64,000 nt of DNA from Desulfurococcus amylolyticus Z-533 (lineage in GTDB: Archaea; Thermoproteota; Thermoprotei_A; Sulfolobales; Desulfurococcaceae), in the NCBI RefSeq assembly GCF_000513855.1, contig NZ_KI911318.1, positions 1 to 64,000 of the forward strand, read 5' to 3'. This document shows, piece after piece, positions 2,928-30,000 of the stretch. Position numbers and translations under genes: made by a program. Under the pieces are notes generated by a model. It was not told where the DNA came from. It saw only the letters and a program-made list of their open reading frames with translations, and searched no databases. Within the stretch, counting starts at the first letter, position 1, and every line of letters begins with the position of its first letter.

Positions 2928-4736
2928 TTAATCAGGTAGATAATATTCCCCACGAGTCCTCTGCTCCCTATCCATCACAGAGCCCGGCTTATTTATCCTT
3001 GGACGCCCGCTCTCACTATCCCTCCTCACAGTTATATCTAGTTCCTTGAGGAGCCTATTAAAGCCTGTCCTAATATCCACTGGGCCGGAGGCATAACCCT
3101 CTATACCGGGCTTACCCAGGAACACTATTATTTTATCGGAGATATAGTTCTGCATAAGTAGGTCGTGTTCCACTACAAGAGCAGTCTTACCTTTCTCCTC
3201 CACTATTCTACGTATGGTTTTCGCAGTAGTGATCCTTTCCTCGACGTCGAGGTATGCTGAGGGCTCATCTAGGAAGTAGAGATCGGCATCCCTTGCAAGG
3301 GCAACGGCTACGGCTAGTTTCTGTAATTCTCCACCGCTCAGCTCGTCAACCCTTCTATCAAGCATCTTATTTAATCCAAGTTTCCTCACCAGTTCGTTGT
3401 ATAGCCATGACGATGGATCGAGGGCTGCCGGCGAGGCTGATTTAAGGTTAGCCATCACTGTCTCCTCACTGAATACTTTAGGGGATAACTCCTGTGGTTT
3501 CACGCTCACTTTCTCAGCAGATATTAATATGGCTTTCTCAGGGGACTCTATTTCCCCATTAAGTAGTTTCAGGAAGGTGGTTTTCCCAACACCATTAGGG
3601 CCCACTATTCCAAGTACTTCCCCTGCATATGCCTCCCCGGGTTCTACACGTAGTTTAAACCCTGATGACTCATACCGGTATTCTATAGCATCCCATTTAA
3701 GCACAGGATATGTGGTGACAACATCCCTTCTCTCCTGCATATGTATCCTGAATCTAAGCTCCTCATCCCTAATTCTCATGTTTTCAGCTGGTAGATACCC
3801 TTTGAGGTAATGGTTTATCCCTGTCCTAGTTCCATAGGGCTTCGATACTATACCGTATACGCCGGGTTCACCATAGACGACTACTATATTATCACTCATA
3901 TAGTCCAGCACCATTAAGTCATGCTCCACTATTACAACGTAGTTTTTTTCATAGTTGCTGAACTCTCTTATAGCGCTAGCAACCCTTATCCTCTCTCTTA
4001 TATCTAGGTAGCTGCAGGGTTCATCAAAGAAGTAAGCATTACCGTTTTTAACCAATACAGCGGCGACCAGGAATTTCTGTAGCTCTCCACCACTTAGCTC
4101 ACCTATCTTTCTATCAAGGAGATGAGAGAGGTTAAGTTCATCGATTATGTCGCGCCATAAGCCTCTCTCATCAGCTTTCATAATAAGCTCTCTAACACTT
4201 CCCTTTAAGACTCTCCTAGCTGCCTCTATATACTGTGGTTTCACAACCGCCTTGATCTCGTTGTTAGCGAGCTTCGTGAAGTATGATTGTAGCTCGCTGC
4301 CTCTGAAGTACCTTATTATCGCATCCCATTCAGGTGGATTACTATAGTTGCCTAGATTCGGCTTTATCTGGCCAGCCAGTATTTTTATACTGGTAGACTT
4401 CCCGGCACCATTTCTACCTATCACGCCTAAGATGCCGCCTGTCCTTGGTGCTGGTAGATTATATAGTTTGAACATGTTTTCCCCATACCTGTGGACAAGT
4501 ATTTTCTCAAGCTCGTCGGGTAGATTAACTATTGATATCGCGTTAAACGGGCATTTCTTAACACATATACCGCATCCTATACATGTCTCCTCGTATATTA
4601 CAACATATTTGCCGTCGCTGCTTAACTCTATGGCCTTCTTCCTCTTCCCCCTGTTGACCGGGCAGAACCTAATACATTCAAGACTACATTTATCTGGTTT
4701 ACAATAGTTTCTATCCACTACAGCTGTCCTAACCAT
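2928..4736 (-). CDS. ABCE1/Rli1 ribosome-recycling ATPase
   Basis: Soluble twin-ATPase that splits 70S ribosomes into subunits after termination or rescue. Domains in order: two 4Fe-4S clusters within residues 1-75 (CKPDKCSLECIRFC and CIGCGICVKKC), NBD1 with Walker A GRNGAGKST and signature LSGGELQK, a hinge segment, and NBD2 with Walker A GPNGVGKTT, a second LSGGELQK and Walker B DLYFLDEPSAYLD. The 602-residue length is normal. It acts with Pelota (48001-49071 in this window) in ribosome rescue. It is transcribed alone; the C-terminus has a basic and Pro-rich tail after the last ATPase motif. Confidence 0.97.
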   Translation of the reverse strand: MVRTAVVDRNYCKPDKCSLECIRFCPVNRGKRKKAIELSSDGKYVVIYEETCIGCGICVKKCPFNAISIVNLPDELEKILVHRYGENMFKLYNLPAPRTGGILGVIGRNGAGKSTSIKILAGQIKPNLGNYSNPPEWDAIIRYFRGSELQSYFTKLANNEIKAVVKPQYIEAARRVLKGSVRELIMKADERGLWRDIIDELNLSHLLDRKIGELSGGELQKFLVAAVLVKNGNAYFFDEPCSYLDIRERIRVASAIREFSNYEKNYVVIVEHDLMVLDYMSDNIVVVYGEPGVYGIVSKPYGTRTGINHYLKGYLPAENMRIRDEELRFRIHMQERRDVVTTYPVLKWDAIEYRYESSGFKLRVEPGEAYAGEVLGIVGPNGVGKTTFLKLLNGEIESPEKAILISAEKVSVKPQELSPKVFSEETVMANLKSASPAALDPSSWLYNELVRKLGLNKMLDRRVDELSGGELQKLAVAVALARDADLYFLDEPSAYLDVEERITTAKTIRRIVEEKGKTALVVEHDLLMQNYISDKIIVFLGKPGIEGYASGPVDIRTGFNRLLKELDITVRRDSESGRPRINKPGSVMDREQRTRGEYYLPD

Positions 4737-4903: not shown

Positions 4904-5206
4904 CTAATCAGACTCCTCTGAGCTACCTTCTTCCCGCTCTAACTCCTCTAAAAGGACCTCATAGTACTCGCTAAGAATCTCTCTTTCCTCCGGTGAAAGC
5001 TTTGTTTCCTTGGTCTCAGTTGCCTGTGCCGTTACAACCCTTTTGCTGGCGTCTACTTGGTATTTAACACTGTACTTATCTCTCCTCTTATCCATCCTAA
5101 CCTCGTAGCCGCATTTATTGCACTTTAGAACAGTCTCCCCATCTTTCTTAACAGGTATCAATGGGCTTCCACATCTAGGGCAGAGCTTAACCACTTCCTC
5201 CACCAT
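4904..5206 (-). CDS. TFS/RPA12-like N-terminal zinc-ribbon protein
   Basis: A 100-residue protein starting with a zinc ribbon, CPRCGSPLIPVKKDG...CNKCGYE, like the N-terminal (Rpb9-type) domain of archaeal transcription factor S and of Pol I subunit RPA12. TFS normally has a second, C-terminal zinc ribbon with an Asp-Glu pair that drives RNA cleavage. Here residues 60-100 carry no cysteines; instead there is a predicted helix and an acidic tail ending EREEGSSEESD. So it could dock on RNA polymerase but should not stimulate cleavage. It may be a paralogue of a full TFS elsewhere. The family link rests on the ribbon and the linker only. Confidence 0.65.
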   Translation of the reverse strand: MVEEVVKLCPRCGSPLIPVKKDGETVLKCNKCGYEVRMDKRRDKYSVKYQVDASKRVVTAQATETKETKLSPEEREILSEYYEVLLEELEREEGSSEESD

Positions 5207-5378
5207 TCCCTATACGTCTTAACTAATGCTAGTTAAACCAGGTTATAAAGATTTGGTTTCTACGGAAAACAGTGCCGAGAAGAAGTGATGACTGTGGGTA
5301 CATATTTCAATCTTTAAAAATCCTCTATACAATCTGTTAAACAGGTATGGTTGTAAAAGTAGCAGTGGAGTGATGGAT

Positions 5379-5591
5379 ATGGGTAAGGTAAGGATCAGAA
5401 TAGTTAAGAGAACGGCACGTGATCTACTGGAGAAATACCCGGACCTATTCACCCATGATTTCCAGCATAATAAGGTAGTTGTATCCAGGCTTGTGGAGAC
5501 ACAGTCCAAGAAGATGCGGAATTTAATAGCTGGATATGTCACGCATCTAGTGTCTCTCCGCTTGAAACGTGAGGCAGCGGCCAAGCAATGA
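5379..5591 (+). CDS. rps17e: 30S ribosomal protein S17e
   Basis: Small-subunit ribosomal protein shared by archaea and eukaryotes. The 70-residue protein starts MGKVRIRIVKRTARDLLEKYPD and has the family segment MRNLIAGYVTHL followed by a basic C-terminus. I chose the ATG at 5379 because GGAGTGAT lies four bases upstream and MGKVR matches the family start; an in-frame GTG at 5370 is less likely. Its stop overlaps the start of the Cgi121 gene (ATGA), so the two are translationally coupled. Confidence 0.93.
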   Translation: MGKVRIRIVKRTARDLLEKYPDLFTHDFQHNKVVVSRLVETQSKKMRNLIAGYVTHLVSLRLKREAAAKQ

Positions 5592-6100
5592 GTAACAACA
5601 TACTCGATGTCTCTAGGCTTTTAGGTAACACTTACAGGATACGGTTCCTAGGTAGAGATATCTATGTAGAGATAGGTATCTGTAGCAAGACATGTGATTC
5701 TCTTGATGAAGAAATAGCCTCCTTAAACCCCGCTGATAACAGTGTCCTAGCCATTATTCCTCAAAGTATGGTTTCAAACGTCTCCCAGATAATTCAGGGA
5801 GCAATACATTTAATAATATACGAGGACAGGTTAACCAGGTTTAGAAATAAAGGGCTACTATTAATGATGCTCTCAACAGGTTATAATCAAATATCTGAGA
5901 TGCTTTTAGAAGCAAGAAAGATGTTCAGTAAGGATAACGAATACTATCTGGTAAAAGTATACAGGGATAGCACCGAAACACAGTCTCTCTCATCGAGGAG
6001 TATAACAGGGAATTGTAGACCTGTCGAAGAACCCAAATGCGGTGAAGACTGTTTAAGATTACTTGTAAAAAACTTGTCTGTCTTACTGGGATTACTGTAG
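5588..6100 (+). CDS. cgi121: KEOPS complex subunit Cgi121
   Basis: Predicted Cgi121 component of KEOPS/EKC, which makes the t6A modification at position 37 of ANN-decoding tRNAs; Cgi121 binds the tRNA and contacts Bud32. The 170-residue protein has the family core with QIIQGAIHLIIYE followed by FRNKGLLLMMLSTGYNQISEML, matching the archaeal Cgi121 pattern. The last 40 residues, with Cys at CRPVEEPKCGEDC, are a lineage-specific tail. It overlaps S17e by four bases (ATGA). The call rests on the central motif; overall family divergence is high. Confidence 0.72.
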   Translation: MSNNILDVSRLLGNTYRIRFLGRDIYVEIGICSKTCDSLDEEIASLNPADNSVLAIIPQSMVSNVSQIIQGAIHLIIYEDRLTRFRNKGLLLMMLSTGYNQISEMLLEARKMFSKDNEYYLVKVYRDSTETQSLSSRSITGNCRPVEEPKCGEDCLRLLVKNLSVLLGLL

Positions 6101-6105
6101 TGTCT

Positions 6106-6204
6106 CTACCATTCCTCTTCTTCCCACTCTTCTTCTTCCCATTCTTCCTCTTCCCACTCTTCTTCCCATTCCTCTTCCCACTCTTCCTCAAGCCATATCT
6201 TCAC
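6106..6204 (-). CDS. Trp/Glu-repeat microprotein (32 aa)
   Basis: A short minus-strand frame with its own expression signals. A TATA element TTTATTTAAATA (6246-6257) predicts a start near 6225; GGAGGGGTG (6213-6221) is a strong ribosome binding site eight bases before a GTG start at 6204. The product begins MKIWL and continues as (EEEW) three times then (EEEEW) three times, ending in Trp before TAG. About two thirds of residues are Glu, with Trp every fourth or fifth position, so an amphipathic helix would line Trp on one face. It is convergent with Cgi121, ending six bases away. Function unknown; the alternative is a purine-rich repeat that is not translated. Confidence 0.55.
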   Translation of the reverse strand: MKIWLEEEWEEEWEEEWEEEEWEEEEWEEEEW

Positions 6205-6282
6205 TATTCCTACACCCCTCCACGTATCAAGGATTATTTTGAATCCTGAGGGTATTTAAATAAACACTTCTAATCCCTTAAT

Positions 6283-6325: not shown

Positions 6326-6588
6326 AAGACTTCCCCGATGATCAGGGCTGAAATGCTGGATGTGTTCTTCTATATATCTTAGAGCTATGGGTAGACCGAA
6401 TATACATCTTCAGGAAGCTTATGGATCCTAAATCAAGGCTATAGATTTACTGGTGGACCTAGCTCCCGAGATCCCCCCCCCCCGGGAAACCACGTTAAGG
6501 GCTGAAGTATAACCACGAGGAATCCGGGGATGATCATAAAAGACGATGAAAACTGCTCTCAGGCGAACGGTATTTGTGGTTGGCCCGG
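6326..6588. other. Intergenic region with an 11-C run
   Basis: No gene is supported here. The stretch is richer in GC than its surroundings and contains a run of eleven C followed by GGG at 6473-6486. The words CTCCCGAGATC (near 6464) and GATCCCGAGG (near 6592) recur. This may be element debris or a structured 3' UTR of the gene ending at 6589. Confidence 0.4.
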
Positions 6589-27083: not shown

Positions 27084-30000
27084 TTATGTGAGGAGCCAGG
27101 AGTAGTTTAGGCCTGTGATTACCCAGTCCTCTATTATATATGTCGTCGTGTTAACATAGTAGCTGGAGCCATACCTACTGTAAACCGGGAGACTCGGCGT
27201 TGTCATGGAGACTATTAGTGATATATCCTGCCTATCCAATGGTGAACCCGTGTTGGCCCACGACAACGTGTATGAGAATGTATAGTACGGCGGGTAGTAG
27301 CCGGTATAGCCTACCGGGGACACTGCGAATACCCTTATGCTCTGTGATTGACTACTGAGAGCTGGGTACGATGATACATCCACTTGACTACTGATAGCTT
27401 GGTACGATGATACATCCATCACAACACTTGACTCGGTCACAGGGTATGGGAACCATACCCTCAGTGTTGCAGTGCCTGATGCCGGCATGGACACTGATGG
27501 CAGTCTCTGCGGTATAGTTACTGGTTTAACTGTTAAAGTAAATTTCTCAAGATTAGTGCTTGAATCAAATAATACTGTTCTAACGATTATAGTGTATATT
27601 CCTAGAGTGGGCTTCTTAGACGGGTATAATCCATACCTGTAGGAGGTGCTTGGGAATATTATCGTTGATGAGTTACCGCCAGCCCCGCCTGTAGCATGCC
27701 ACATGAATATACCGCTACCCATGTATGAATGCCATGACACGGATTCACCGTAGAAGATGCCGGCGAATAATCCATTCGGTCCAAGCGTGTATGCTACTAG
27801 TGATGTGTTGGGTAGGCTCCAGCTAGCTGTTACCTGTAAGTACGCTATGCTTGGACTACTTACGTTGACATAGAAGAACCTCCAGTCACCGGCCTCATAC
27901 CTCCATTCCCAATCGTTCTCGCCTCTCAAGTGTGATGTGGGCATCGGGGAACTAACATCATTTAATGGGTTCAGTGTGGTCTGGATACCGGGTGTCAGTG
28001 AAGCAACGACCGTGTAGGTTAGAGGCACGTAGTATATCTGCTGTATTGATCCATAGTTGACCACTACCTTGATATATGACTGGTATACTGTTGGAACAGT
28101 TGATGAAGTCGTCGATATGGTACCATATAATGTGATGTTCCTGCCCGGATTAACGGTGAAGATAGTGGTTGGTAGGGTTATCGAGGTGTCTGGGACAACC
28201 TTATAGTATGTGATAGTTACTGGTATTGTTATGTTGACTAACTCGTAGAAGCCCTTGCTTGTATCAGTGTCGTTCCATAATCTACACCTTACGACTAGCT
28301 TGGCATCACCGTAGTAGGATGCGAAGGTATTCAGCCAGTACAATGGGGCAGCTATCTGTAACCTATTGTATGATGAAGTGTGGAGCCCGTAGTTGACGTA
28401 GGCTACCTCATCAACCTGTAATGGGTTATTGGGGCGGGTTGGATCATATGGGTAACCGTTTCTATCTGTATCATTCACCCATATGTATGCAAATACGTCT
28501 GCATCGTAGTCAGGTATGTAGTCCCCGTCTCCATCAAAGTACTTGAAGGGCATGTTCACCTCAACGCTCATTAATGCTGCATCACTTGGTATGTCTTCCC
28601 TGTTCAGTATTAAGTAGGATGAATAATGAAGCATTCCTCTCAGTAAACTCAATGTTAAATTATATGTTTTCACACTTGAAGCCGCGAATTTAACGCTTGA
28701 TAGGGACACCTGTATTGGCGTCTGTGTTGGGTTAACTATTGATATATCGAATACCCTTGATAATCCACGCGGTATATCCGGGACGTATACACCGTAGTGA
28801 CCCAGGGTACTCCACGATGATGGTATAGATGGATTGCTTGGGAATATTACCACCCCATACCACTGGAGCAGGCTTACTGGTATGTAGTCCCTCCAGTAGT
28901 AGAACCAGAGCTCTGAGAGCTTGCTGGAGACACCACTGTAGTAGCTCTTAGAATATATCAATGGTTCACTGTTCTCCAGAATACTTGAAACAGCCCTGTA
29001 CACGTTGACTCTCCCAGCACCCTGATCTAGTGGCGGGTAGTTCAGGTAGTCGGCTGTATTCATCAGTATTTGTTTAACCGTGAACGGATTAGTGTATCTA
29101 CCTTGCTCACCATACTTCTGGATCAACGCGCTTAGTATCAATGCCACCGATCCAGCGGTTAATGGTGTAGCATAGCTTGTACCACCGAACACTGTGTAAT
29201 TGGTACTGTTCCAGCCTATAACGCTAGCTGTAAGCCCGAAGGCTCCAACATTGACTACATCGGGCTTCAAGTAGCCTGCTGGGGTAGGTCCCCTAGCTGC
29301 CCAGCTTATTATCTGATCCCATGTTATATTAGCATAGCCGTATAAGAGATAGTATGGCCACCATGAGGTAGAGGCACCAACGGTTATCACACCGGCCGCG
29401 GAACCAGGCGATGTCACAGTACCGTATCCGCCGCCACCGTTGCCGGCTGCCTGAACTATTATTATACCCGGGTACGAAGGATCTAGGAAGCCGGGTGTAA
29501 CTAGGCCGTTCTCCAGCATAGAGGTGAAGTCGTAGCCGAAGCCTGAGATATCATATATGAACGAGCTTATACCCCAGCTATTGCTTATTATATCGGCCCT
29601 CCTGCTTCCAGTATAGTAGAGTAGGCCAGTTGATGGATCGCTATCGAATCCGGCTGCCCACATCATGCCTAGCTCTGTGTTACCCGAGTAGAGGGCTTTG
29701 ACACCTATTATCTTAGTGCCTGGGGCTATGCCCTGTAGTAATCCACCATATAATACGTCATTGCCTCCAATAGCTGAGGCACAAGCTGTTCCATGCCCGT
29801 TGAAATCATAGAATATACTCAGGTATCTGCCCTTCAGGTCCCAGCCTGGCAGGAACCTGCCTGAACCGAACCACCACCCGAGATCATAGAAGAATCCACC
29901 GGCTACTCCAAAGCTGTAGCTCGGGTTAGCCGGGTTCGGGGACACTAGTATCCTGTCCCCGTAGTAGGATGCCCTCATATCGACACTATCAGTGAATACC

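Follow-up and report, generated by a model that had tools for sequence, protein, structure and literature searches.

In both archaea and eukaryotes, ribosomes are split by the essential enzyme ABCE1. To our knowledge, eIF3 is present in eukaryotes and absent from archaea. In a structural study of native ABCE1-43S complexes, the N-terminus of eIF3j reportedly contacts ABCE1. A helper role for eIF3j alongside ABCE1 in recycling has been proposed (PMC7196836). The ABC2 domain of Rli1/ABCE1 mediates direct binding to Hcr1, and the hcr1 deletion is suppressed by RLI1 in high copy (PMC3836723). In yeast, Rli1/ABCE1 is recruited to the CIA targeting complex through the C-terminal Trp of Lto1; this conserved residue, replaced by Phe in some organisms, serves specifically in Rli1 maturation (PMC4523923). 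The tripeptide recognized by the CIA machinery is [LIM]-[DES]-[WF] (PMC10623007). Finally, acidic residues early in a nascent chain cause intrinsic ribosome destabilization or pausing, an effect used by the leader peptide MgtL (PMC11282234).

Here we analyze an acidic, Trp-rich microprotein encoded close to ABCE1 in Desulfurococcus amylolyticus Z-533. The window is the whole stretch of DNA analyzed, i.e. positions 1 to 64,000 of contig NZ_KI911318.1. A phylum-wide microprotein beside ABCE1 that is unannotated in Pfam and NCBIfam is a concrete candidate regulator in archaea, which lack eIF3. It also illustrates that deeply conserved genes can be hidden by low-complexity filters and minimum gene lengths.

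The microprotein gene and its neighborhood

The features of the locus, in window coordinates, are:

2928-4736, minus strand: ABCE1/RLI, the Fe-S twin ATPase of ribosome recycling (Pfam ABC_tran, Fer4_RLI and Fer4)
4904-5206, minus strand: TFS/RPB9-like single zinc-ribbon protein with an acidic C-terminus (NCBIfam TIGR01384, TFS_arch, E 1e-9, below the cutoff)
5370-5591, plus strand: ribosomal protein S17e (Pfam PF00833, E 8.5e-18)
5588-6100, plus strand: predicted Cgi121-like KEOPS subunit, convergent and paired with S17e, ending 5 bp from the microprotein stop
6106-6204, minus strand: microprotein gene of 32 aa with a GTG start (6204-6202) and a TAG stop that immediately follows the final Trp codon
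6213-6221, minus strand: Shine-Dalgarno sequence GGAGGGGTG, spaced 8 nt from the GTG
6253-6262, minus strand: TATA-like element TATTTAAATA, about 50 nt 5' of the start codon

According to the open reading frame listing and its translation, the product is MKIWLEEEWEEEWEEEWEEEEWEEEEWEEEEW, i.e. MKIWL(EEEW)3(EEEEW)3. It contains 21 Glu and 7 Trp and has a net charge of about -20. An earlier note on this DNA had described an ORF with a TATA box, a Shine-Dalgarno sequence and a GTG start, and we located all of these on the minus strand at 6262-6106. The same note placed the peptide in no known family. This agrees with our searches, as the window microprotein matched neither Pfam-A and NCBIfam profiles at E 0.1 nor PDB sequences, and a literature search found no description of an acidic-Trp peptide. 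The idea of a membrane-surface peptide was not borne out, since the sequence has no signal or membrane segment. At the search sensitivity used, the microprotein is present as a single copy in its own genome. AlphaFold models it as one acidic helix with a pLDDT of 93, to which we give no weight because a helix is expected for a Glu-rich sequence. An amphipathic display of Trp on an α-helix or β-strand was rejected for the window peptide; the resultant at 100 degrees was 0.17, no better than random. A Trp period of 4.5 residues does stand out for this one peptide.

The control elements have counterparts elsewhere. GGAGGTG-like motifs occupy the equivalent place in two relatives (G001 and G002), and TTTAAA/TTTATA elements lie at a comparable distance from the start in orthologs of the family. 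Upstream of the promoter, a run of about 11 C bases occupies the intergenic positions 6473-6484. Elsewhere in the window, positions 27348-27418 hold a tandem repeat of two 36-bp copies with 94% matches.

ABCE1 lies 1.4 kb from the microprotein gene. The minus-strand order microprotein, TFS-like gene, ABCE1 is found in the window and at two further loci (L301 and L303), where it is uninterrupted; in the window, S17e and the Cgi121-like gene are inserted on the opposite strand between the microprotein and the TFS-like gene. The product of 5588-6100 has no Pfam match and no PDB sequence match. Its AlphaFold model (pLDDT 82) has Cgi121-family chains as best Foldseek matches (best E 6e-5), and the gene thus matches Cgi121 in predicted structure. 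A protein search of the genome contigs with a neighbor of the microprotein gave no match.

Coding evidence in the genus and family

Judged from its pattern of nucleotide divergence, the minus-strand ORF at 6106-6204 is a genuine conserved protein-coding gene. Among family copies with identical peptides, all nucleotide differences (202/202) fall at third codon positions. In the repeat part, the window copy differs from its nearest relative at 13 of 81 bases, with 0 amino-acid changes. This third-position-only divergence argues for selection at the protein level. All three genus members retain the peptide style, the GTG start, the Shine-Dalgarno sequence and the TATA element. The loss of frame in close relatives that the earlier note named as a refutation was not seen, as frame and terminal W-stop are preserved; the variation in repeat number with a held frame, which it suggested looking for, does occur in relatives, again with the W-stop kept.

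The low complexity of the sequence makes homology statistics weak. A protein search of 40 relatives recovered orthologs in 6 genomes and missed many, which we attribute to this low complexity. At the DNA level, a strict (E3-4 W) pattern matches 19 of the 40 family genomes, and further members carry variants with WW.

Distribution and variants across Thermoproteota

We searched for the family with a DNA pattern for an acidic-W tract running to a W-stop, which is blind to neighboring genes. Matches were obtained in 155 of 398 Thermoproteota genomes, including a few out of frame, and in 134 of 316 good genomes; the reversed control pattern gave 0 matches in the 398. The peptides are about 20-50 aa long and consist of Glu/Asp runs punctuated by Trp, with an acidic tail of 15-52 aa. 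Trp spacing is mostly 4 to 9 across the family, with WW pairs. Variants include those of Bathyarchaeota (MVFEEEEWEEGEDEEWEEEEW), Ignisphaera (MLLEEEWEEEEEEWWEEEEEWEEEEW), Sulfolobaceae-like genomes (MEEEWEDIEEEEWEDIEEEEDWEEDEW) and Pyrodictium (MKWLILDEEEEWWEEEEEEEEWWEEEEEEWEEEEW). Searching phages by tblastn with the bathyarchaeal variant yielded no match.

The C-terminal Trp is near-invariant among the sequences collected. In 146 distinct tails the last residue is W in 144 and F in 2, counts that overstate its constancy because only tails closing with W or F were extracted; in one Sulfolobaceae-like member (G199) the peptide finishes with EEE. The last tripeptides of the 146 tails are EEW (129), DEW (7), DDW (4), EDW (3), DEF (2) and GEW (1).

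The pattern did not detect the family in six groups that have ABCE1 (f15, f16, f21, f25, f31 and f37). These may carry sequence variants outside the patterns; in Sulfolobaceae-like genomes, variants containing D, I, L or F likewise escaped strict patterns.

Peptides of similar style appeared in Thermococcus and Thorarchaeota in an all-species scan, as look-alikes for which homology is not established, and ABCE1 was not adjacent at the loci read. The Thermococcus proteins (L189, L235, L260, L275 and L182) are 57-72 aa long, with a basic start (e.g. MQPPKKKK) and a long acidic Trp tail ending in W, and adjoin a MoeA-like gene in several loci. Those of Thorarchaeota (Asgard; L179, L267, L232 and L247) are Trp microproteins rich in Asp and with a terminal W, and two of them adjoin MTA-phosphorylase-like and phosphoribosyltransferase-like genes. 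One Thermoproteaceae-like genome (G236) has three microprotein copies (L290, L291 and L292); the start of two of them contains Cys, and these two have a repeated TnpB-like gene nearby. A similar acidic-Trp C-terminal tail, TEEEEWEEEEEEEWDEWEEEEW, is found on an apparently LysW-like zinc-ribbon protein (L284, 5592-5843). Cyanobacterial proteins of about 690 aa (L170, L198 and L268) carry WEDWDDDDW or a closely similar sequence at the C-terminus and are apparently unrelated.

Linkage to ABCE1

The linkage count comprises 116 blind pattern matches from 29 families for which the position of ABCE1 is known. Matches that are out of frame (G277, G320 and G443) or look out of frame or unrelated (G431, G462, G502 and G517) were omitted. 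The microprotein lies upstream of ABCE1 on the same strand and within 3 kb in 65 of the 116 matches, at a median distance of 131 bp; when orientation is disregarded, the number within 3 kb rises to 73 of 116. Related species inflate such raw counts, so we prefer counts by family: the same-strand upstream arrangement occurs in 19 of 29 families, and ABCE1 is within 10 kb in 20 of 29. By our own estimate, one particular gene in a genome of 1-2 Mb would by chance fall on the same strand and at most 3 kb upstream with a probability of the order of 1 in 1000, and linkage in 19 families is therefore not accidental. An all-genome scan independently placed ABCE1 beside most small thermoproteotal matches.

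Within the window's own family, ABCE1 is within 10 kb in 17/17 cases. The microprotein gene is directly upstream of ABCE1 in f3 and f11 and on the opposite strand in several f1 members. ABCE1 is kept as a neighbor while other neighbors change. Linkage is lost in the Thermoproteaceae-like f22 (0/16, several genomes closed) and was not seen in f23, f35 and f50, where the two genes are on different contigs of draft assemblies. At nine loci from several lineages (L057, L058, L060, L100, L107, L116, L165, L298 and L299), T-tracts of 5-8 bases follow the microprotein stop and precede the start of ABCE1; they are possibly terminators or attenuators.

Possible roles of the microprotein

We tentatively favor a reading, possible though by no means assured, in which the microprotein would be an ancient archaeal trans-acting cofactor of ABCE1 in ribosome recycling, similar to the N-terminus of eIF3j/Hcr1. 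The peptide would be translated and act in trans, its acidic chain with spaced Trp residues serving as a multivalent short-linear-motif peptide. It may dock on ABCE1 or on the 30S post-splitting complex of ABCE1 and, once docked, could tune the ATPase activity, residence or release of ABCE1 and thereby affect recycling, in the way proposed for the acidic N-terminus with Trp of eIF3j/Hcr1 in eukaryotes. The linkage, the selection at the protein level and the near-invariant C-terminal Trp are consistent with such a cofactor. Action in trans is favored because the peptide is conserved where it lies outside the ABCE1 transcript (window, f22 and f35). Counting against the cofactor reading are the loss of linkage in f22 and its absence from what was seen in f23, f35 and f50, the ABCE1-bearing groups in which the family went undetected, and the look-alikes of Thermococcus and Thorarchaeota away from ABCE1. 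ABCE1 may also be merely a co-expressed translation gene.

This last point leads to a rather unlikely alternative, an acidic-aromatic protein with a general role, either chaperoning or shielding basic proteins of the ribosome or of chromatin or acting as a nucleic-acid mimic, whose linkage would reflect co-expression with translation genes. The extreme negative charge and the single acidic helix of the AlphaFold model fit such a protein, as do S17e and the KEOPS subunit Cgi121 among the neighbors and the copies unlinked to ABCE1 in f22, f35 and Thermococcus. However, co-expression with translation genes at large does not account for ABCE1 staying when the other neighbors differ, and a plain acidic shield would have no need of a near-invariant C-terminal Trp.

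The short distance to ABCE1 on the same strand suggests a cis-acting leader peptide, in which nascent Glu runs would destabilize or pause the ribosome and sensing of this upstream of ABCE1 would control how much ABCE1 is expressed, as with the MgtL leader. The median spacing of 131 bp and the T-tracts before ABCE1 in many lineages are as expected for such a leader. Yet in the window two convergent opposite-strand genes, S17e and the Cgi121-like gene, precede the TFS-like gene and ABCE1, and in several f1 members ABCE1 is on the opposite strand. The peptide is moreover conserved in f22, f23, f35 and f4 with no ABCE1 downstream in the stretches read. Despite the upstream position in 65 of 116 matches, the gene is not directly upstream in the same transcript in the window or in f22, and we consider control in cis unlikely.

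Since ABCE1 contains two [4Fe-4S] clusters, the linkage could also point to cluster delivery, with the C-terminal Trp serving to recruit the Fe-S assembly machinery to ABCE1, comparable to the C-terminal Trp of Lto1 in yeast. The near-invariant terminal W or F with an acidic residue before it fits this idea, but where the CIA recognition tripeptide has L, I or M, the third-last position of 146/146 tails holds E, D or, in one case, G. An adaptor of this kind would leave the internal Trp repeats unexplained, and Cia1 and Met18, which are not known to occur in archaea, also count against it. We regard it as very unlikely.

That the ORF arose by chance in a purine-rich tract has next to no probability: the sequence is of low complexity and several reading frames of the tract are open, but conservation of frame, start region and stop, divergence at third positions only and phylum-wide occurrence with zero matches for the reversed control pattern already refute it.

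Comparison with known systems

Like MgtL-type leaders, the microprotein is encoded by a short acidic ORF that in many lineages precedes another gene. It differs in that its sequence is kept where ABCE1 does not follow, including in the window, and in that very long acidic repeats with Trp take the place of EPDP. With Lto1 it shares a conserved C-terminal Trp/Phe and a connection to ABCE1/Rli1. The deca-GX3 motif of Lto1 is absent from the window microprotein, which has no Gly and consists of about 32 aa of repeats.

The likeness to eIF3j/Hcr1 lies in the acidic chain with spaced Trp. The N-terminal sequence MSWDDEA..DSWDAE..QSWDAEEEE was confirmed as yeast eIF3j, and its SWDDE, SWDAE and SWDAEEEE motifs compare with the E/D runs with W found family-wide. 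Homology is not detectable between these sequences, and the resemblance is compositional. The full-length architecture of eIF3j is also lacking in the 32 aa of the window peptide: eIF3j has about 265 aa and further domains and works with eIF3, whereas the microprotein has 20-50 aa and ends in Trp. It is doubtful, but conceivable, that an ABCE1 cofactor of acidic-Trp motifs, spread across much of Thermoproteota and with look-alikes in Asgard archaea and Thermococci, does the archaeal job of the eIF3j N-terminus and could go back to an ancestral ABCE1-docking motif that was incorporated into eIF3j later on. eIF3j/Hcr1 is a physical and functional partner of ABCE1, while the microprotein is tied to ABCE1 by genomic linkage.
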